DNA of 61,076 nucleotides from Acidobacteriota bacterium. GTDB taxonomy: Bacteria > Acidobacteriota > UBA6911 > RPQK01 > JAJDTT01. Positions 21,770 to 32,391 of the stretch are shown piece after piece (the stretch's first letter is position 1; each line of letters starts with the position of its first letter). The translations under genes and the position numbers were made by a program. A model generated the notes under the pieces. That model saw only the letters and a program-made list of their open reading frames with translations. It did no database searches and had not been told where the DNA came from. The stretch covers positions 1 to 61,076 of the forward strand of contig JAJDTT010000182.1 of NCBI GenBank assembly GCA_022827025.1. Reading direction: 5' to 3'.

Positions 21770-22590
21770 TCATCGGGAACTCTGGGGGTCGCGTTCGGGG
21801 GTAGGGTCGGGCTCGACAGCGGATTCACCCAGCACCTTCCAGTAGCCGCCCTTGTTAGGACCGACCCGCTCAATCTTCCCGGCCGCGCGCAACTTGTCCA
21901 GCCGGTACCGGACGATGGATCGCGTGGTGCCGAGGGTGGTGGCGATTTCGCGGCGGCCCGCGTACGGATTCTGGCGAAGGAGAGCCAGGATACGGCCGAA
22001 AAGGGATGGAGGTTCTGGCGATTGGCCTTCGTTTCTGGCGGTTTTCTGGTGGGATTCTGGAGGTTTTCTGCCGGCGTTCTGGCGGTTTTCTGGCTGATTC
22101 TCCCTTGCGTGCCGACGGTCCCCCGCAGAGTCATCGGGCTCCTCCCTGGCATCCGTTTCAGGATCGTCGACAACCAGCCAACGTCCTCCCCTGTCTGGCC
22201 CGATGCGACGTAACTTACCCAATTACTTGATCTTTTCCAACTGATACCGGACGCTCCCTTCGGTGGTGCCTTCAAGTGCCCCAACAATGTCGCGGCGGCT
22301 GGCGGACGGATGCTCCCGCAGGAATGTGAGGATTCGGTTCGCCAGATTCTGTCTGGCCCCCTTCCGTTCTGGTGGTTTCTGGTTGCTTCCTGGGTAGTGT
22401 CGCGATGGTCTTGGGTGGTCTCGCGGTTTCCGGACCGCCAAATCCTGATCAGGAACCCCGCGCCGACCTCGAACTCCGGCTCCGGCAGGCCCGTCTCCGC
22501 GCAACGCCGGATCATGTCCACGGTCCCGGTCCCCATCCTCTCGATGTACTGCAGCAGGTACATTGCTCGGCAAGCCTCGTGAGGTTGGGA
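21770..22590 (-). pseudogene. Remnant of ATP-binding/winged-helix protein (COG2865-like), copy A
   Basis: This is a decayed paralogue of the gene at 26488-27390. The minus-strand frames encode the family's ERMGTGTVDMIRRCAE segment, then an acidic linker, then two winged-helix units (RILTFLREHPSASRRDIVGA and RILALLRQNPYAGRREIA). A frame change near 22575 separates LAE from MYLLQYIERMG. Another lies between 22340 and 22440. An in-frame TAA at 22223-22225 cuts the first winged helix exactly where the paralogue reads LKADGS. The linker between the helices is Gln/Asn/Pro-rich and arises from a TTCTGGCGG-type short repeat near 22010-22110. It cannot make a full protein. Confidence 0.78.
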
Positions 22591-22862
22591 GCCGCGCTGA
22601 TCAAACTTGGCGAGAGAGATTCAACGGGCAGCGTCTGTTGAATCTTGGTGAATACCTGATAGAACTCTCTGCATTTCCGCAGACTGGTCGGCGAGCAGCC
22701 CTTGATTCCATTCGCCCGAAGTCTGTCTGACAGACGGTTGATCAGTTCCTTGCCGTAGAGTTTCCGGCGGGCCGAGCCGCCTCCTTCGTACTCCGCGATG
22801 TACCATCCGAACAGCCAGTTCCGCACGACCAGCGAGCTGTCCACGGCGCGGGAAGCGGAGCG
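22591..22862 (-). pseudogene. yhcG (DUF1016) N-terminal fragment, copy A
   Basis: The encoded stretch RAVDSSLVVRNWLFGWYIAE, together with a following LRKCREFYQVF helix, is the N-terminal domain of the YhcG/DUF1016 nuclease family. It closely resembles the fragment at 27370-28108. The reading frame then runs into the ATP-binding remnant, so the C-terminal PD-(D/E)XK nuclease domain is missing. The upstream end joins unrelated sequence at about 22862, where the rtcB-flank repeat begins. Confidence 0.75.
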
Positions 22863-22889
22863 CCGAGTAAACACGTCGTCCGACGCCGG

Positions 22890-23036
22890 TCTCAAAACTC
22901 GCCGGATCGGGCTGGGGCGTAGGCGATGACGGCCCGCACCGAAAAAAAGCCCCGGATAGTTCCACCGGAACGTTCGGAAAGCGCCCCCGATGAGGAGGGA
23001 GCTTCAATCCCGATAGGGATCGAATTCGCCCGCGGC
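22890..23036. repeat. Left direct repeat derived from the rtcB 3' end and flank
   Basis: Positions 22890-23036 align with 32392-32547 in the same orientation. The shared core CTCGCCGGATCGGG, the adjoining GGGGCGTAGGCGATG and the rtcB stop region are clearly recognisable; the middle has diverged. With the right copy it brackets the hsdR to two-ATPase segment, 9.4 kb of mostly decayed defence genes. Confidence 0.78.
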
Positions 23037-23105
23037 GGCCCCCATGCTCTTCCTCCCAGGCGAAATTGTGGTGATAGTGGACACCCTCCAGGAACTCCCT
23101 TTCTC
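23004..23105 (-). pseudogene. rtcB 3'-end remnant with internal deletion
   Basis: The fragment encodes the RtcB metal-site segment HHNFAWEEEHGG and then jumps straight to the last residues, AAAGEFDPYRD and stop. Relative to the intact gene, 404 bp are missing. The junction lies in an 8-bp direct repeat (GGCCGCCG on the coding strand) present at both deletion ends in the intact copy (32540-32547 and 32944-32951). The deletion is not a multiple of three, so the two parts are in different frames. Confidence 0.85.
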
Positions 23106-23145
23106 CCGGATAGTCCCCGAACGACGGCCGCAACTCGGCCGGGAG

Positions 23146-26100
23146 TTACCTGACGGGCAGAAATTTGCCCCAGACTTCGTCGGCAAGATGGGTGCGATTC
23201 AACTCTTCGGCGCGCAGTCGCCAATTCGGCATGACGCGGTCCAGGATCTTCCGGAAGCGCTCGTTGTGGCTCGGCTCGGCGAGGTGGGCCATCTCGTGGA
23301 CGACGACGTACTCAAGGCAGGGCAGGGGCTTCTTGGCCAGCTCGGAGTTGAGCCAGATGCGGCGAGTCCCGGCATTGCAGCTTCCCCAGCGTGTCTTCAT
23401 GCGGCGGATGCGCCAGTCGGCCACATGTACGCCGACCCGGGATTCCCACTTGGCGACCATCTCAGGGATGCGCTGTCGCAGTTGAGCCCGGTACCATCGG
23501 TAGAGCAGGGCCTCGCGGGCGTCGCGACCGGTTGCGGGGCGGACGTGCATCTCCATCCAGGCATTGTTGCGCAGGCGAATACCGACGGAGCTTCGCGATT
23601 CAACCACATCCAGACGATAGCGCCGCCCCTCGAAGTAGTGACTCTCGCCGGACACGAAGTCGCGCCGGGATTGACGGTCTTGCCGCTCGAATTCGGCACG
23701 TTTGCGCCGAATCCATCCCAGGCGCGAAACCACCGCCAGCCGTATCGCGTCGTCGTCGAGGCGCAGCGGAGCCGAGACGCGTACTTGACCCTCGGGGGGA
23801 TGGACGCTCAGGTGGAGGTTCTTGATGTCCTTGCGGATGACCGCCACGGGAATGCCGCGGACATCCATGTGGTACCGGTCAGTTCCGTCCCGGAGGAGCA
23901 GGTCCACGAGGGTCATGTCGTCGAACTTGGACACCACTTCGCTGTCCTCGGCCCGGATGTAGTTGTCGAGGAGGTGCCGCATGGCGGGCTCGAACATTTT
24001 GAGATCGACGTAGTCGCCGCTGGCCAGCTTGACTTCCTGACGAACCTTCTCGTAGTGGCTGACCTCGTACCTGATGGCCAGCCGCTCGGCTTCCGTGTAA
24101 CCGGCCTCGATCATTTCGTTGGCCAGGTTGGTGTAGGCGCGGAGAAACGCCGCCACCATCCGGTACAGCGTGAGGCGCTTCCGTTCGTTGGCAGCAAGCT
24201 GCGGGGCTGTGTCGCCCTCTCCGCCGTGGCAGAAATACCGCAGGTATGCCGCGGTGTCCCGAGGCGGCTCGACAGGTTCGCAAAGCGCCTTGACCTGCTC
24301 ACGGGTCTCTTCCAGCCGCTCCCGCCCCCGCTCGAGACGATCCTTCAGCAGGCCTTCCACGTCTTCGCGGTCATAGCCCTCGAACGCTTCGCCCGTGTAG
24401 TCCTTGATGGCCCCCTCCAGCGACCGGAACAGATCCTTGTAGTCGACGATGTAGCCGTACTCCTTGTCCTCTCCGTCCAGTCGGTTGACACGGCAGATCG
24501 CCTGGAAGAGACCGTGATCCTGCATCTTCTTGTCGATGTAGAGATACGTCGCGGGAGGGGCATCGAAACCGGTCAGCAGCTTGTCCACGACGATCAGAAG
24601 CTTCATCTGCCCGGGCTCGTTGACGAACCGCTGCTTGACCTGCTGCTCGAACTGCTCGGCTTTGTTCATGGCCTTGTCCTCGGGCTCACCGAAGTAGTTC
24701 GCCAGCATCTTTCGGTAGATGTCGTACTTCAGCAGCTTCTCGGTCAGGCCCTCGCCTGCTTCTTCTCCCTTGATGTCGCCTACGGCAGGACTATAGGACG
24801 TGACGATGGCGCACCTGTCCTTCAGTCCGGTCCCACTGAATGCGTCGAAGAAACGGCAGGCCGCGTAGATACTGTCCGACACGAGCATGGCGTTGCCGCG
24901 CCCGCTCTTCAGGCGGTCACGCATCTCCATATCGATCAGGATGTCGTCCACGATCTTCTCAATCCGGTCCCGCGAGCTGGTGACCTTCCGCATGGTGCCC
25001 CACTTCTGCCTGAGCTGCGCCCGGGCCAAGTCGCTGAGCCCCTTGGTCTTGAGATCGAACCACTGGTCGATCTTCGCCTCCGACGTGATGTTCTGGTCGA
25101 TGTCGCGCGCCTCGTAGCGCAGGTCCAGAACCACCTTGTCGTCCACCGCCTCATCGTACTTGTAGGTGTGTATGTACGGGCCGAAGATCTCGATACTGCG
25201 CTTCTTGTCGGACCTGAGGAGCGGGGTGCCCGTAAAGCCGATGAGCGTGGCTCCGGGGAGGATGGCCTTCATGGCCTTGTGGAGCTTGCCGGACTGGGTG
25301 CGGTGACACTCGTCCACGAAGACGAAGATTTCGCCGGGGAGCTGGATACCACCTGACATGTGTGCCCGCAGGTCGTTCACGTACTGGTCTACGTTGCCCT
25401 CCTCGGAGCTGCCGAACTTGTGGACGAGCGAACAAATCAGCGATTTGGCGGGGTCGCCAAGGACCTCCACCAGATCGGCCCCGCTCTTTGTTCGGTAGAT
25501 GTCCTCGTCCACACCTTTGAAGACCTTTTCGATCTGCTCGTCGAGCTCGGTGCGATCCGTGATGATCAGCACGCGGCCGTCAACGCCCTTGAGCTCACGG
25601 ATCCACTTCGCCAGCCACACCATCGTGAGGCTCTTGCCGCTGCCTGAGTGTGCCAGATGATCCCGCCCTCGCGACGCTGGGCAAAGGCCCGGGCCGCTTG
25701 CACGCCAAAGTACTGGTTGTGCCGGCAGATCTTCTTGACGCCGGCGTCGAAGACCACGAAGTCGTGTATGAGTTCAAGCAGGCGAACAGGGGCGCAGATC
25801 TGGCCGAGCTCTCGAAGGAGGGGAGAGGTGGGAGCCTCGGAAGAAGGGGCACCGGCTTCCTTCCAGCGAAGCCAGTACTTTTCCGGGGTCCCGATCACGC
25901 CGTACCGGAGCCCTTCGGTATCGTTGCCCGCCAGGACGATCTGCACGGTGGTGAAGAACGGCTGGATGAAGTCCCTCTTCTGATTGTCCAGATTCTGGCG
26001 GATTCCCTCCGCCACCGAGACGGTCGAGCGCTTGAGCTCAAGCACGCCGACTGCGATTCCGTTGACGTAGAGCACGATGTCGGGCCGCTTGGTGTTCTTC

Positions 26101-26486
26101 CCCGCGACCGTGACCTCTTCGGCGATGGCGAAGTCGTTGGCGGCCGGGTCCTTCCAGTCGATCAGGTCGACGGTGACCATGTGCTCCCCGAGCCCGGGAC
26201 GGATCCTCGCGCCGTAGCGAAGCAGACCGTAGACGTCGCGGTTGGCGCCGTAGAGCGTTCGGCCCCCACCGAGAGCGGCGGCTTTGTCCAGTTTCTCCAC
26301 CGCTTTGGAGATGATGTCAGGGTCATGACCCTGGCCCGCGAGGAATCGCATGAGATAGTCGGCTTCGATGTTCCGATTGCCCTGACGTTCGTGCCAGTTG
26401 CCCAGATATCTGTAGCCGAGTTGGTCCCGGAAGTGGTCGACGACCCGGCGCTGGGTGCGGATTTCGAACTCGCCGACTTGGATCAT
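23146..26486 (-). pseudogene. hsdR: hsdR, type I restriction subunit with fused YgjP-like metallopeptidase; frameshifted
   Basis: The first ~280 codons (26486 to about 25643) encode the HsdR nuclease domain, with PDIVLYVNGIAVGVLELKRS holding the Asp and ExK residues. The rest, in another frame, encodes the helicase motor (DECH box, GFTGTPL) and C-terminal region. One base is missing at about 25643: the sequence reads CACACTCAGGCAGCGGCAAG where a GGG run would give HTQGSGKS, so the break lies in Walker A. The last ~240 residues (23146 to about 23868) are a complete YgjP/DUF45 metallopeptidase domain with HEMAHLAEPSHNERF, fused in frame to HsdR; it is usually a separate gene beside hsdR. The start follows the previous stop by one base. 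A sequencing error at the G run is possible. Confidence 0.9.
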
Positions 26487-26487
26487 T

Positions 26488-27390
26488 TCACTTAACCACC
26501 TCCCACCGGCCCGCTCTGTCCGATCCGACTCTGCGGATCGCGCCAGCGGCTTTGAGCTTTCCGAGGTGGTACTTGATCCCGTCAGGCGTGATGCCGATGC
26601 GCTCGGCGAGTTCTCGCCGCGTGAGCTCGGGCTCGGCACGCAAATAGCTCAGGATTTTTTCCTGGGTAGTTATCTGGGTAGCGGCCGCATTGATCTGGGT
26701 AGTGGGAGTCGTTGTCCGGGTAGTACTTGGCTCCGGGCGGTCTTCTGGCCGGTTTCCGGCCGACTCCTGGCCATCGGCCGGGCGATCGGTTACGACCCAG
26801 CGCCCCGCTCTGTCTGATCCAACGCGACGAACGGAACCGTCAGCCTTCAGTTTGCGCAGATGGTACTTGATCCCATCCGGAGTAACGCCGATTCGCTCGG
26901 CGAGTTCGCGGCGGGTCAGTTCGGGTTCAGCCCTCAGGTAGTCCAGGATTCGTTCCCAGGTAGTCTTCTGGGTATCCGGGCGGTTGATCTGGGTAGTATC
27001 AGGCGTGCTCGGGGTAGTGTTGTGGGTAGTACTGAGGTCGCGGTCCTCTCCCGGCTGCCGTCCGACGGCCTTCGGGTCTTCGTCCGATGCTCCTCCAGGC
27101 CGCCAAACCCTCGTCAGGAATCCCGTGCTCACGTCGAACTCCGGTTCTCGCAGGCCAGCTTCGGCGCAGCGGCGGATCATGTCCACGGTCCCGGTTCCCA
27201 TCCTCTCGATATACCGCAGCAAGTACATCGACTCCGCCAGCAGCGGATTGCCCGGGAGCGACTGGTGCGGCAGGCGCAGCTTGTCCACAGTCAGGGGCGG
27301 CGGCAACCGGCCCGAATTCATGACCTCAAGCCGGTCCGCGAACAGCATCACCTGAATGCTGCTGTTGTCCGTATAGTCCCGGTGGGAAAC
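26488..27390 (-). pseudogene. 5'-truncated ATP-binding/winged-helix protein (COG2865-like), copy B
   Basis: The coding part begins abruptly within the HATPase-like domain (HRDYTDNSSIQVMLFADR at about 27390) and runs to 26488 without a break. The AlbA-like N-terminal half is missing. Downstream are two nearly identical winged-helix units, each with an AEPELTRRELAERIG helix and a GIKYH recognition region. They are separated by Thr/Gln-rich linkers (TTQIN, ATQITTQ) that come from CTGGGTAGT-type short repeats in the DNA. A shorter product could start at 27351. The stop is one base before the hsdR start, so translation was coupled to the restriction gene, and a regulatory or accessory role in the type I system is likely. 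Confidence 0.75.
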
Positions 27391-28108
27391 CGGTCGATGA
27401 TCGCGGTTTCCAGGTCGTTCTCGGAGTGGGACAGCTTCTCCTCCAAGCCGAGGAATTCCAGCACGACCGGGTCCTTGATCAGGTCCGACGCCTTCTCGAC
27501 CACTTGTCCCTCCCGGGCGAGGCGGCGGACCTCATGCTTGTCGCGGCTGAGCGCGAGCCGCTCGTAGAGGGAGCTGCCGAGTTGCCGCTTGAGTTCGCGG
27601 CCTCGATCTCGTAGAAACGGCGGGCTTCGGGGTCGGTCACTGACAGAAGCGTGACGTAGTGAGACCAGCCGAGGGTGAGATGCTGAAGCAGCGTGGTGGA
27701 AGCAGACCGCAGTACTTGGGGCAGGCCCTCTCCTGATACCGTGGATTTCGCAGACGGCGTTTGCGGATTCTGGGCAGCGGCGGAAATCGCAGACAGTGTC
27801 TGCGTTTTTCCGGCTTGTGGCAGGGTTTCTTCGGATTGCAGGTAGAAGCGTCGAAACTGCTCAAGGGATCGCAAGGAAAAACCCCGCCCGACCCTCGCTT
27901 TCAGAGCTGCCGACAGCTTCTTCAGCGTCTGCGCGCCATACTCCGCCCGGTCAGCACCCCTCTGCTCGTACTCCACGATGTAATAGCCGAACAGCCAGTT
28001 CCGCACGACCAGCGAGCGGTCGACGGCGCGGGTGGCGAAACGCCGAGTCTTTTCGTGAGTCTGCCGGCAGAACTCGACGAGGCGTTCGAAATCGAATCGC
28101 TCGCTCAC
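27370..28108 (-). pseudogene. yhcG (DUF1016) nuclease gene, frameshifted and truncated, copy B
   Basis: The start overlaps the hsdM remnant stop as ATGA. The N-terminal domain (RAVDRSLVVRNWLFGYYIVE) and most of the middle are present in frame to FYEIEA near 27600. There a small deletion shifts the frame. The following RELKRQLGSSLYERL, LGLEEKL and DLETAIIDR segments, typical of YhcG, are in another phase. The sequence then joins the ATP-binding gene inside its HATPase domain, so the whole C-terminal PD-(D/E)XK catalytic domain is lost. YhcG proteins are putative nucleases often associated with type I restriction loci. Confidence 0.82.
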
Positions 28109-28790
28109 GTCGGCAGCCCCATCTGCCTCAGGTGGGACTCGACTCTGGCGCTGTAGTCCTCAACATGACGCTCCAGTTCCGGCAACGCGTCCGCATAGCG
28201 TCCTGTCAGCACCCTGACCCGGTCCACCAGCCCACCCGCCAATCGCTCCACCTGCTGCTCGATGCTGGCCTCAACGCTTCTCACCCACTTGTCGTTCACA
28301 ACGATCTCGGCAATCTCCGCCACGGTTAGCGTCGCGTAGCCGGCGAGCACTTTCGCGTCCAACTCCGTCTGTGCCGCATGAGGTACTCGTACGCGTCGCC
28401 CGGGAGGTCGTAGCCATGGGCGCGATTGGCGCGAAAATCGAGCCCCTCGAAGATCCCGACGAGCTTCGTGAGACGGTCCTGCATCTCCTTGCCCTTGCCG
28501 AGCTTGCTCCCGTCGTTGAAGTCCGCCTGGTTGATCACGCCCTTGAGCAGGTAGTCGCTGGCATTGGCAAGCTTGCCGATGACCTTGTTGATTCCGTCGC
28601 CGATCTCCTTGGTTCCCTTGAGAGCGACCATGTCGGCGAAGTCGTCGTCGCCTGCGTACTTGTCCGAGACGTACTTCATGAAGAGCAGGGTGAGGATGTA
28701 GTCCTTGTACTGGGACGCGTCCATGCCGCCGCGCAACTGGTCGCAGCTCTGCCAGAGCGAGGAGTAGAGCTGGGATTTGCGCAGGGGCAT
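28105..28790 (-). pseudogene. hsdM: hsdM, type I modification subunit with catalytic core deleted
   Basis: Two parts of HsdM remain. Codons from 28790 encode the N-terminal helical domain (LRGGMDASQYKDYILTLLFM to DAYEYLMRH, ~145 residues). The last 88 codons, in another frame, encode the HsdM C-terminus (DAKVLAGYATLTVAEIAEIV to HLRQMGLPT). The intervening methyltransferase core with the SAM-binding and NPPF/DPPY motifs, roughly 280 residues in normal family members, is absent. The junction lies near 28370. No specificity subunit (hsdS) is present, so no modification can occur. The stop overlaps the yhcG start, showing the original operon order hsdM-yhcG-ATPase-hsdR. Confidence 0.88.
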
Positions 28791-28797
28791 GGCTGGA

Positions 28798-28989
28798 TCA
28801 GTAAGTGGGCTCGGAGATCAGGGGAGGAGGGGCCAACACCTTCGGCTTGGTGCGAGCCAGCAGGCATTCGAGCTGACGGAGCAAACCCGTGAGCGCCCGG
28901 ATGACGTACAGATAGGTTCCGCGCTTGGAGGCAACCCGCACCAGATCCGCCATCCGCCACATGACGCTCGTCAACTCAGCGTAGTTCAT
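28798..28989 (-). pseudogene. Short hsdM-like N-terminal remnant of a second lineage
   Basis: 63 codons upstream of hsdM. The sequence resembles the first helix pair of another class of type I methyltransferase subunits (pattern ...WxxADLLRGxxKRxxYxxVILPLTVLRRLDCVLxPTKxKVL). Here it reads WRMADLVRVASKRGTYLYVI, then LLRQLECLLARTKPKVLAP. Nothing after this motif is retained. It may still be transcribed with hsdM. The match is by motif only, and an unrelated small protein is possible. Confidence 0.5.
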
Positions 28990-29057
28990 GCCTCAAATGC
29001 AACACGTCGCCTGCGGCTCAGGGCCGATGAAATGTCCGGCCCAATCACACAACAGTA

Positions 29058-29086
29058 TTGATGACAACGAATTCGTTGTGTATTCT
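29058..29086 (+). promoter_or_regulatory. Predicted sigma-70 promoter of the two-ATPase operon
   Basis: TTGATG at 29058-29063 and TATTCT at 29081-29086 are separated by exactly 17 bases and lie 37 bases before the ATG of the first ATPase. Each hexamer matches four of six consensus positions. The spacer is almost filled by a perfect palindrome, described separately. A GAGG ribosome site at about 29112 completes the leader. Confidence 0.6.
29064..29079. promoter_or_regulatory. Perfect 16-bp palindrome, candidate operator
   Basis: ACAACGAATTCGTTGT is its own reverse complement. It occupies the spacer between the predicted -35 and -10 boxes, the classic place for a repressor site. A further ACACAAC at 29047-29053 repeats the half-site with one extra base pair, matching GTTGTGT at 29075-29081. 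The cognate regulator is not evident nearby. Confidence 0.65.
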
Positions 29087-29122
29087 CTCGGGAGACCGGA
29101 ATCACGCCAACTGAGGACAAAC

Positions 29123-30358
29123 ATGAGACCAACGGTCGGCCGTTGGGTGAGCGGCGAGGACTTTTTTGACCGGGAGGGCGAGCTGCGGGTGCTGGAATCC
29201 CACGTCCGGGGTCGCAACCACCTGCTGTTGACCGGGCAGCGGAGGATGGGCAAGACCAGCATCGCCAGGGAACTCGGACGGCGCCTGGAGGGGAAGGGCT
29301 GGATCTTCCTTTTCGCGGACGTCGAGGGTTCCACCTGCGCCGAGGACGCAGTGGCGACCATCGCGAAAGAGACGTATCCCATCCGTTCGATCGCCTCGCG
29401 CCTTGGCACCGGAGTGAGGGAATGGGTTGGCGAAAACCTCGATGAAGTCGGCGCCCACGGCTTCCGCGCGAAATTCCGGGCCGGGCTCAACGCAGGCAAT
29501 TGGCGACGCCTTGGCGAAAAGCTGCTCCAACAGTGCGCTGACCAGGACGCCCCTGTCCTTCTTGTGATCGACGAGTTGCCCATCTTCCTCAAGCGCATGC
29601 TCCACCACGACGGAGCCGCGCGGCGCGTGGACGAATTCCTGAGTTGGCTGCGCGGTGCGATTCAGTCGTTGGGAGACCGGGGGCCAGTCTTCATTGTGTC
29701 GGGCAGCATCGGACTCCAGCCACTCGTCCATCGCCTCGGGATCCCGGATCGAATCAATCACTTCTACCCCATTCGACTGCAGCCCTGGGACCGAGCGACG
29801 AGCGTGGAGTGCTTCGAGCGTCTTGCCGAGGGCGAGGGATTGCGGGTCGAAGACGGAGTTGCGGACGCGGTCTATGGCGCCCTGGGGCTTGGGATCCCGC
29901 ACCACGTGCAGTCCTTCTTCGCGCGGATCCGGGACTTTGCCACCCTGAGAGGGACACGTGCGGTGACCGTCGAGGATGTTCAGCGCGTTTACCAGACCGG
30001 GTTGCTGGGCCCCTTCGGGCAGAACGACTTGGTCCACTACGAGACACGCCTCAAGGATGGTTTGGATGACGAGACCTTTTCGATTGCGATGGAGATTCTC
30101 GCGGAGGCCGCGACGTTGGGGGCGTTCACACGCCGCGCCCGACGCTACCTGGAGGAGCAGTACGAAGAATTGGTGAATGACATCCGCGGACGGGTAGCCG
30201 ACGCAATCGAGATTCTGGTGCACGACGGATACATCGAGGAAAGCGAGAACGGGCACCGGTTTCCGTCTCGGTTGCTTCGGGACTGGTGGGCGGCACGCTT
30301 TCGGGATCACCACGTGCCGCTCGAGAGCCGGTGTCCCGACCCCACAACCGTGGACTGA
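29123..30358 (+). CDS. P-loop ATPase, first gene of a two-ATPase module
   Basis: 411 residues. Walker A is GQRRMGKT at residues 38-45. Walker B is VLLVIDEL at about 145-152. A sensor-like strand (FIVSGSIGL) follows near 190. The C-terminal ~100 residues look like a winged helix or lid (AMEILAEAATLGAF, then DAIEILVHDGYIEE). This is the AAA/STAND-like archaeal-ATPase group (COG1672 type), whose members act as regulators or NTP-driven switches. The ATG has GAGG eight bases upstream. It is followed after six bases by a second, different P-loop ATPase. The pair stands intact in an otherwise ruined defence island, and no function can be named for it. Confidence 0.82.
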   Translation: MRPTVGRWVSGEDFFDREGELRVLESHVRGRNHLLLTGQRRMGKTSIARELGRRLEGKGWIFLFADVEGSTCAEDAVATIAKETYPIRSIASRLGTGVREWVGENLDEVGAHGFRAKFRAGLNAGNWRRLGEKLLQQCADQDAPVLLVIDELPIFLKRMLHHDGAARRVDEFLSWLRGAIQSLGDRGPVFIVSGSIGLQPLVHRLGIPDRINHFYPIRLQPWDRATSVECFERLAEGEGLRVEDGVADAVYGALGLGIPHHVQSFFARIRDFATLRGTRAVTVEDVQRVYQTGLLGPFGQNDLVHYETRLKDGLDDETFSIAMEILAEAATLGAFTRRARRYLEEQYEELVNDIRGRVADAIEILVHDGYIEESENGHRFPSRLLRDWWAARFRDHHVPLESRCPDPTTVD

Positions 30359-30364
30359 AGACCG

Positions 30365-32287
30365 ATGAGCGGCGAACCCGACCCCACCATCCGCAAGTTC
30401 AACCCCGGCCTGCTCCAGTCCGATAAGGAGATCAAGGAGCAGTTCGTGGTTCGCAGTCACGAACTGGGACTGGTGCTGGAGGAGTTGCGGGGCAACATCA
30501 CTTCTCCCTCCTGCCAGCACATTCTGGTGGTTGGCCCTCGCGGACGCGGCAAGACCATGCTCCTTGCCCGAATCGCCGCCGAGCTCCGCATCCACGGGGA
30601 CTTCGCCGGGTCGTTGCTGCCGGTCCGGTTCATGGAGGAGAGCCAGGAGATCTTCAGTCTCACCGACTTCTGGCTGGAGACGATGTTCCAATTGGCCAAC
30701 GAAATCGACGGGGATGACGCCGAGCTGGCGAAGGAACTGGGAGACACCCGGGCCTCACTGTCGCTGCGCTGGCGCGAACAGATCACCGAGGCACAGGCCC
30801 GGGCGGCCGTATTGAACGCTGCGGATCGGTTGAAGACGCGGCTCGTCCTCATCCTCGAGAACCTGCAATCGCTCTTCAGGGACGCCCACGACGAGTTCGG
30901 CTGGCAACTCCGCGAAGTGCTGCAGACAGAATCCCAGATCATCCTGCTGGCCTCGGCCACCAGCCGATTCCGGGCGCTGGACGACGTGGATGAGCCCTTT
31001 TTCGAGATGTTCCGCATCGTCGGACTGGAGCCGTTGGACACCGAGGAGTGTGGTCGCCTGTGGCAGGTTGTGAGCGGGAGGCCGGCGACCCGGCGCGAAG
31101 TCAGGCCGCTCCAGATTCTGACCGGTGGCAACCCACGCCTCCTGGTGATGGCGGCCGAGTTCGCGCGGCATCAGTCTTTCCGCCGACTGATGTCGGAACT
31201 TGTCACGGTGATCGACGAGCACACCGAGTACTTTCGGGGTCACCTGGAGATCCTGGCGAAGACGGAGCGGCGTGTATACGTGGCCATAATCGACCTGTGG
31301 CAGCCGTCTTCGGCGAGCGAGATCGCCGCCCGGGCGCGCGTCGACATCCGGGTGGCATCGACCATGCTGGGGCGGCTGGTCGAACGCGGTGCCGTCATCC
31401 GGCAAGGCCGAGGCCGGAAGCGGCTGTATGCGGCTGCGGAGCCTCTGCACAGCATGTACTACAAGCTTCGGCGTGAGCGAGACAAACCGGCTGTCGTAGA
31501 GAACCTGATCCGGTTCATGGTGGCGTGCTACGAAGTCGGGGACCTGTGGGAACTGTCTGGGCCTCTTTCGGTGGAAGTGGCGGAGTCGGAGGCGCTTCGA
31601 CGGAGTTTCGCACGGGCGCTGGCGAGCAGGCCGCCTGCCGGCGACGGTTCTGTCGAGCGGACTCGAAACGCCTCCGCGCTCCTCAACAATGGCATTGCTT
31701 ACATGCGGCGAGGGGATCGCGCCCGTGAAATCGAATGCTACAGTGAGCTGATCGAGCGCTTCGATTCGCTCGATGAGCTTCGTTCTCACGTGGCTATTGC
31801 GCTTAGCTACAAGTGTATGGCACAGGCTGAGAGCGGTCTTGCCGATGAGGCTTTGAGTGGCTGCCACAGATTGGAACGCGCGATCCAATCACTTTCGAGC
31901 GACCGGAAAGAAACCGGCGAAGAACCCTGGGCCACCTGGTTGCGTTGGCGCGCGTTGGCTGCAAGGTCGCTGGCACTGGCGGTCCGAAGCGAACACGAAG
32001 CCTCGCTGCAGAGGTTCCGCGCCGCCTACACCGCGTTCCCGGCCAACAATGAGGTGACAATCCAAGAGATGCTCCGCCTCGTCGTAGCGCTGGTTGGGGC
32101 GGGTGCCCCACCCCGCGAGCTGGTGGATGTCCTCACCGGGGAGACATGCAAGTCCGACGGGCTGTTTCCCCTTATCGTTGCCCTCCACGAGCGCGCAGGC
32201 AGTCGGGTACGGGCGCCAAGGGAAGTCGAGGAGGTGGCCGCCGACATCAGCAGACGGTTTGACGAGGCCGCGGAGCGTATTGGTTGA
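30365..32287 (+). CDS. P-loop ATPase with winged-helix and TPR-like C-terminus, second gene of the module
   Basis: 640 residues. Walker A is GPRGRGKT at residues 57-64, preceded by a conserved-looking N-terminal FNPGLLQSDKEIKEQFVVR. Walker B is LVLILENL near 160, with Glu-Asn in place of Asp-Glu. A sensor strand (ILLASATSRF) follows near 198. Around residues 300-365 is a MarR-like winged helix (ASEIAARARVDIRVASTMLG). The last ~220 residues are helical with repeat-like pairs (LLNNGIAYMRRGD, ALSYKCMAQAESGLADEAL) suggestive of TPR units. The order NTPase, winged helix, TPR resembles STAND-type sensor ATPases used in signalling and phage defence. It starts six bases after the first ATPase, so the two are co-translated. 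Confidence 0.82.
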   Translation: MSGEPDPTIRKFNPGLLQSDKEIKEQFVVRSHELGLVLEELRGNITSPSCQHILVVGPRGRGKTMLLARIAAELRIHGDFAGSLLPVRFMEESQEIFSLTDFWLETMFQLANEIDGDDAELAKELGDTRASLSLRWREQITEAQARAAVLNAADRLKTRLVLILENLQSLFRDAHDEFGWQLREVLQTESQIILLASATSRFRALDDVDEPFFEMFRIVGLEPLDTEECGRLWQVVSGRPATRREVRPLQILTGGNPRLLVMAAEFARHQSFRRLMSELVTVIDEHTEYFRGHLEILAKTERRVYVAIIDLWQPSSASEIAARARVDIRVASTMLGRLVERGAVIRQGRGRKRLYAAAEPLHSMYYKLRRERDKPAVVENLIRFMVACYEVGDLWELSGPLSVEVAESEALRRSFARALASRPPAGDGSVERTRNASALLNNGIAYMRRGDRAREIECYSELIERFDSLDELRSHVAIALSYKCMAQAESGLADEALSGCHRLERAIQSLSSDRKETGEEPWATWLRWRALAARSLALAVRSEHEASLQRFRAAYTAFPANNEVTIQEMLRLVVALVGAGAPPRELVDVLTGETCKSDGLFPLIVALHERAGSRVRAPREVEEVAADISRRFDEAAERIG

Positions 32288-32391
32288 CGACATCAAGGTG
32301 AGGCAGAGTCAACAGACGGATCCCGGTCGACCTCCCTACGCTCGGCAAGCCGCACCTCTTATCCGCCTCTCGTCCCACCCCAACAGCCCGG

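Follow-up and report, generated by a model that had tools for sequence, protein, structure and literature searches.

Two adjacent genes, here named P1 and P2, in a 61,076-nt stretch of an Acidobacteriota genome (contig JAJDTT010000182.1 of GCA_022827025.1; the whole stretch, to which all coordinates refer, is called the window and its genome G000) encode two ATPases of the STAND type, a class of switch proteins that underlies many immune receptors. We read them as a self-regulated module of two genes that moves horizontally and most probably serves in biological conflict, against phages or mobile elements. To this reading as a whole we give about an even chance. A conflict role is favoured because the pair is mobile and patchily distributed, because the TPR array of P2 turns over and the presumably costly partner P1 is lost repeatedly, and because two plasmid-borne relatives of P2 lie beside Pycsar and AbiE genes and beside cyclase and ThiF-like genes, respectively.

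The two frames are separated by six bases and contain no internal stops, bearing out the sequence-only reading of this DNA, which had reported two clean frames for P-loop ATPases six bases apart, the second with a winged helix and a TPR-like tail as in STAND sensors. The P1 frame is open back to an earlier ATG at 28988, but the start was set at 29123 because operator and promoter lie between these positions and homologues begin at 29123. The features of the two proteins are:

29123-30358, plus strand: P1, 411 residues, STAND-type ATPase with C-terminal winged helix, archaeal ATPase/SSO1545-like fold
29234-29260, plus strand: P1 Walker A, GQRRMGKTS, residues 38-46
29570-29575, plus strand: P1 Walker B, Asp150-Glu151 (DELP), canonical in 50/50 full-length copies
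29891-29908, plus strand: P1 STAND GxP motif, GIPHHV, residues 257-262
30365-32287, plus strand: P2, 640 residues, STAND-type ATPase with winged helix, TPR array and conserved C-terminal segment
30533-30556, plus strand: P2 Walker A, GPRGRGKT, residues 57-64
30857-30862, plus strand: P2 atypical Walker B, Glu165-Asn166, with Asn at the position of the catalytic Glu
31253-31444, plus strand: P2 TrmB/MarR-like winged helix, residues 297-360, with Arg329 in the recognition helix
31652-32044, plus strand: P2 TPR region, a short, degenerate version of the 43-residue repeat array
32072-32266, plus strand: P2 conserved C-terminal segment, located after the variable TPRs

Both proteins exceed the Pfam cut-offs for AAA_16 and AAA_22, and the TrmB match of P2 lies just over its cut-off; nSTAND1, nSTAND3 and nSTAND5 stayed below theirs, and the nSTAND2 model was not among the matches. 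The two proteins show the hallmarks of the STAND class, namely a P-loop with Walker A and an acidic Walker B, a GxP motif and a winged helix, the last seen by Pfam and in the structural models; superstructure-forming sensor repeats (43-residue TPR units) are present in P2 and absent from P1. As Walker A P1 has GQRRMGKTS and P2 (A/G)PRGxGKT, and in nearly all copies a GxP motif precedes the winged helix, (I/V)P(H/Q)xxQ in P1 and T(G/D)GxPRL in P2. The Walker B of P2 reads Glu-Asn in 78/78 readable copies, Glu replacing Asp and Asn replacing the catalytic Glu. Walker B mutants of this sort hold ATP and hydrolyse it poorly, and from its Glu-Asn motif P2 should likewise bind ATP yet be a poor hydrolase. 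The AlphaFold model of P1 (predicted local distance difference test, pLDDT, 88) agrees in fold with 2qen and 2fna, two archaeal STAND ATPases, and that of P2 matches the same archaeal family as well as Orc1/Cdc6, Apaf-1 and CED-4, its winged helix also matching the MarR protein 2fa5. We rejected recent duplication as the origin of the pair, as a profile comparison aligned only the Walker A region of the two proteins.

A profile scan yielded 78 P2 loci. We searched 31 whole genomes, a sample deliberately including loci without P1, and found P2 directly downstream at 31/31 places with a P1 match (E<=1e-20), so that the proposed check for neighbours in the same order came out in favour of a conserved pair. 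In the analysed set 50 operons carry a full-length P1 directly upstream of P2, with gaps of -14 to +27 bp and a single exception at 187 bp; ATGA overlaps are frequent, and P1 appears to be translationally coupled to P2. The trees of the two proteins are concordant (distance correlation r=0.86; Mantel test, 0/1000 permutations). Against close relatives the ratio of nonsynonymous to synonymous substitution rates (dN/dS) is 0.11-0.16 for P1 and 0.13-0.19 for residues 1-430 of P2, indicating purifying selection on both proteins. The earlier claim of ongoing selection thus holds as far as these ratios go, by which the intactness of the frames is beyond chance, whereas intactness amid ruin, from which it had been drawn, is equally explained by recent arrival, the pair being missing from the sister genome G003. 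Related pairs exist on a Moraxella plasmid, where a P1-like gene overlaps a P2-like gene, and on a Segatella plasmid, where the gene after P1 encodes a minimal P2-like ATPase that lacks TPRs; the pairing is therefore old. Three Latescibacterota loci (L056, L065, L078) have the order P1-P2-P2', the second P2 having its own operator. Distant P2-like proteins of ~830 residues and ~25-27% identity, again with a Glu-Asn Walker B, occur in the class to which the window genome belongs (L029:7314-9809, minus strand; L030:489-3020, minus strand; L031:3246-5717, plus strand), and a P1 match was absent from those genomes.

Upstream of the operon lies a palindrome, WCAAC-N6-GTTGW, usually in two or more copies at a 15-bp period around the -35 box. 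The motif was found in 68/80 operons as compared to 24/795 control genes (3%), and the tandem 15-bp period in 45/80 operons. In the window the following elements were assigned:

29049-29064, plus strand: degenerate upstream operator copy, ACAACAGTATTGATGA, 15 bp from the next copy
29064-29079, plus strand: perfect palindromic operator, ACAACGAATTCGTTGT
29058-29063, plus strand: probable -35 box, TTGATG, at the operator junction
29081-29086, plus strand: probable -10 box, TATTCT, at 17 bp spacing

The -35 box is supplied by the GTTGACAAC junction (TTGACA in 47/50 operons) and is followed after 16-18 bp, exactly 17 bp in 38/50 operons, by a -10-like hexamer. The strict tandem motif occurs 0-3 times per genome in 28 carrier genomes, nearly always at this operon, and not at all in the reversed control. 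Of the tandem sites away from known copies one is found ahead of a P1 remnant, two are isolated and look like relics, and one is a second site 0.4 kb upstream of a pair. A wider regulon was rejected, since the window genome has 11 single sites as compared to 14 in the reversed control and the tandem sites are confined to the operon or relic-like; control therefore appears to be autoregulation. The two stand-alone tandem operators (L110:7558-7586 and L111:7323-7351), with neither P1 nor P2 nearby, are possibly relics of lost copies, and at L113:5821-6248 an HsdM-like frame immediately precedes the pair, which has two tandem operators at a distance of 0.4 kb from each other.

The most likely reader of the operator is P2, because the motif persists in front of P2 where P1 is gone and in front of second P2 copies, and because its junction base covaries with residue 329 of the winged helix: with Arg329 the base is A/T in 76/76 sites, with Asn, Ser or Lys instead, G/C accounts for 11/13 sites. 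This covariation is supportive and not proof. As the operator overlaps the -35/-10 region, we infer repression rather than activation, and P2 probably represses its own operon.

P1 appears to be the dispensable partner. It is missing or truncated in 27/77 scored operons (19 if cases resting only on a frameshift are set aside), and parsimony on the P2 tree requires at least 10 loss changes without the frameshift-only cases and 15 with them, P2 remaining intact. P2 stands without P1 in 10/31 genomes, and between two P1-less copies (L076/L107) its dN/dS is 0.18, which together show that P2 is autonomous and remains under purifying selection. The window genome itself has a second copy of the pair on contig C151 (L027:10639-12758) in which P2 is intact and P1, relative to G003, has suffered an in-frame deletion of 732 bp (244 codons) between 10-bp direct repeats (TCGATCTGGA); G003 carries a full pair at the matching place (L026). 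P2, in turn, varies in length, complete copies ranging from 528 to 1738 residues mainly by the number of 43-residue (129-nt) TPR units. The array extends from almost none to ~26 units, the ~26 units of L053 showing a 92% match, and units are few and degenerate in the window P2. The TPR/C-terminal part also evolves faster than the remainder (dN/dS ~0.3 vs ~0.15). Such turnover is what a recognition surface that faces changing demands would show.

According to submitters' titles P2 is present in about ten phyla, mostly in metagenome-assembled genomes, and many carriers are apparently sponge-associated, judged by bin names. Changes of phylum label on the tree exceed what vertical descent needs, which alone is no proof of transfer. 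P1 and P2 of the window genome are, however, 81-85% identical to Gemmatimonadota copies, whereas its rpoB has its nearest match in Acidobacteriota (69% to Vicinamibacteria) and shares just ~52% identity with Gemmatimonadota. These values, together with the empty site in G003 described below, indicate that the pair has been transferred between phyla. Binning error cannot explain the Gemmatimonadota side because one copy (L038) comes from a single-chromosome assembly. Copies of the pair are chromosomal, complete chromosomes included. Two distant P2 relatives without P1 are located on conjugative plasmids in defence clusters: that of a Sphingobium baderi plasmid (L114) lies beside Pycsar and AbiE genes, and that of an Agrobacterium tumefaciens plasmid (L115) has a ThiF-like enzyme and two nucleotide cyclases as neighbours. 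An operator of the GTTGCCAAC type accompanies the Agrobacterium copy.

The extent of the mobile unit follows from G003, a genome of the same genus, in whose contig C100 window positions 29010-32388 are missing and the flanks are contiguous and 85-88% identical. The unit gained here (or lost from G003) therefore consists of promoter/operator, P1 and P2 only. The unit and the remnants at its landing site are:

29010-32388, plus strand: mobile unit, operator/promoter with P1 and P2, ~3.38 kb, ends good to ~10 bp, from the empty site in G003
28108-28790, minus strand: hsdM remnant, cut down; landing site, outside the unit
23149-26639, minus strand: hsdR in two frames, split at ~25,620; landing site, outside the unit

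To the left of the pair lies a minus-strand type I restriction locus that is decayed, with hsdR split, hsdM shortened and DUF1016 reduced to fragments, and repeated pieces of a DUF1016/helix-turn-helix/HsdM-HsdR cassette occupy 22512-28790 (minus strand). G003 carries full-length hsdM (715 residues), DUF1016, hsdS-like and hsdR-sized frames at this locus, indicating that decay took place in the window genome. The earlier statement that all remaining genes of the island are broken applies to this restriction locus; rtcB, to the right of the pair, is apparently intact and not part of the island. The decay of the island and the intactness of the pair may differ in age. The segment 22874-22930 of the window resembles the empty-site junction of G003. 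No integrase, transposase or terminal repeats were found at the junctions of the unit, and a transposon was rejected, as terminal repeats, target duplication and transposase were all unseen there. We also rejected a conserved third gene as effector, since clustering of 1,180 neighbour genes gave none besides the pair.

Combining these observations we propose the following mechanism. P2 would be the core, its winged helix binding the tandem palindromes over its own promoter and holding the operon low. Its expanding, contracting and fast-changing TPR array would bind a trigger, and trigger plus ATP at the Glu-Asn site, predicted to hydrolyse poorly, would switch P2 into an oligomer. Switched P2 would release the operator, leading to derepression, and would recruit or activate P1. 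P1, which has a canonical ATPase site and was never seen without P2, would be a costly, expendable executing or amplifying partner acting through its ATPase. The trigger of P2, its oligomerisation, the action of P1 and defence as the purpose are speculative. Going further, the pair might represent a new class of immune receptor, in which a STAND sensor is its own repressor, a trigger bound to the hypervariable TPRs frees the operator and engages a second STAND ATPase that works by its ATPase activity and has no dedicated effector domain, and operator and two genes move as one across phyla; we put this forward tentatively and regard it as rather doubtful.

Several observations weigh against the conflict reading and its details. 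We compared the 116 nearest neighbour genes of the pair with 88 genes more than 6 kb away by PADLOC and Pfam, and the few restriction, Abi or Gabija-like matches were only slightly more frequent nearby, so that the enrichment near restriction and defence genes that had been expected is not clear. The neighbours are mostly metabolic, and as they show no clear enrichment the restriction remnants are best taken as the landing place of this copy and not as the general context of the pair. Copies of the pair were absent from the phage records and viral contigs searched, and cargo of a phage or prophage was rejected on these zero matches. No effector domain, GT4 and HEPN included, was recognised in P1 or P2 by Pfam, NCBIfam and PADLOC scans. 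Most carriers are metagenome bins whose taxonomy was given by the submitters. The model of P2 is only fair in quality (pLDDT 75; predicted template modelling score, pTM, 0.43). As to the operator, the covariation with Arg329 rests on a few deep clades along with which P1 has diverged, so that the reader might also be P1 or a complex of P1 and P2; moreover, in NOD-type STAND proteins the winged helix frequently has a structural role and does not have to bind DNA.

The features that speak for conflict have to be weighed against other explanations. A toxin-antitoxin-like pair, in which free P1 is harmful and P2 neutralises it and represses the operon by conditional cooperativity, would account for P1 never occurring without P2 while P2 occurs without P1, for the recurrent gutting of P1, and for an operator on the pair's own promoter, a layout typical of autorepressed pairs (repression being predicted here). 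Yet the putative toxin would lie upstream, share the fold class of its partner and lack any known toxin domain, and an orphan P2 that is under purifying selection (~0.18) and keeps its operator and varied TPRs exceeds what a leftover antitoxin needs; we consider this explanation rather unlikely. That the pair is instead dedicated to signalling, as a switch of the MalT or mycobacterial IniR kind that senses a metabolite or stress outside any conflict, seems quite improbable to us. STAND regulators do exist (IniR, PMC5760070), the anatomy of STAND, winged helix and TPRs would suit one, and the many sponge-associated carriers would then reflect habitat, but no promoter other than the operon's own and the two relic-like sites carries the tandem operator, leaving nothing else to regulate, and housekeeping regulators do not usually show such rapid change of TPRs or transfer across phyla.

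The match of both folds to Orc1/Cdc6-type structures, the tandem 15-bp repeats adjoining the genes and the absence of a 3.4-kb block from G003 are also what a replication or partition module would show, with ORC/Cdc6-like ATPases on iteron-like repeats maintaining or moving a small element. As the repeats coincide with a promoter whose -35 and -10 boxes are 17 bp apart, the copies are chromosomal, and no transposase, integrase or terminal repeats were seen at the junctions, we judge it very improbable. A neutral passenger, whose frames are intact owing to recent arrival and not to maintained function, fits the missing pair in G003 but is hardly compatible with a dN/dS of 0.11-0.19 over long divergence, a conserved operator and conserved motifs in about 80 copies, and we find it scarcely credible.

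If the conflict reading is right, the conflict systems of prokaryotes gain a widespread two-STAND module that is, by the libraries and papers searched, apparently undescribed. It would also suggest that immune-type sensing is directly linked to self-repression, since recognition of the trigger and of the operon's promoter may reside in a single protein. Recurrent loss of P1 beside a retained P2 is a natural experiment on the role of each partner, and the operator offers a ready reporter, a promoter fusion of which would allow laboratory strains to be screened for induction by phages or plasmids. In agreement with the sequence-only reading, which had not recognised a named system and had made no mention of the operator, the repeated P1 loss, the TPR hypervariability or the cross-phylum transfer, no Pfam, NCBIfam or PADLOC family covers the pair. 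PADLOC gave no full-length match to known anti-phage proteins, only weak P-loop matches (mad8, E=3.6e-5; PDC-S01, E>0.01), and no description of the pair was found in the open-licence literature, an absence that is weak evidence.

Among arrangements already described the nSTAND2 two-gene operon, a predicted counter-invader system, comes closest (Kaur et al. 2021, eLife 10:e70394, PMC8195603). Both adjacent genes encode STAND NTPases there as well and one partner has weakened NTPase motifs, to which P2, with its Walker A retained and Asn at the catalytic Glu, may be a counterpart. In nSTAND2, however, GT4 or HEPN effectors are attached to the inactive STAND, and the family has CR-ATPases as near relatives, whereas in the present pair neither protein bears a fused effector domain, each retains its Walker A motif, and what look like archaeal-ATPase/ORC-type STANDs with winged helices are combined with variable P2 TPRs and a conserved self-operator. 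P1 shares its P-loop, GxP motif and C-terminal winged helix with the archaeal/SWACOS STAND ATPases (ATPase_2; SSO1545, 2fna; PABY2304, 2qen), but identity is in the high teens (per cent) and P1 is obligately linked to a second STAND gene. P2 resembles TPR-bearing NLR-like STAND immune proteins (CARD-NLR LypB, Avs), in which TPR-like repeats as presumed sensor follow the ATPase, an Orc1-like/STAND ATPase in the case of LypB (PMC13236601). It differs from them in having no N-terminal effector, CARD-binding domain or peptidase partners, its partner being a second STAND ATPase, and in having its own operator. With MalT and IniR, the latter of which regulates a single operon (PMC5760070), the pair has in common that a STAND switch is tied to DNA binding and gene control; unlike in these regulators, the sole target found is the module's own promoter, and the predicted DNA-binding unit is a winged helix directly after the ATPase in place of a terminal LuxR-type domain.

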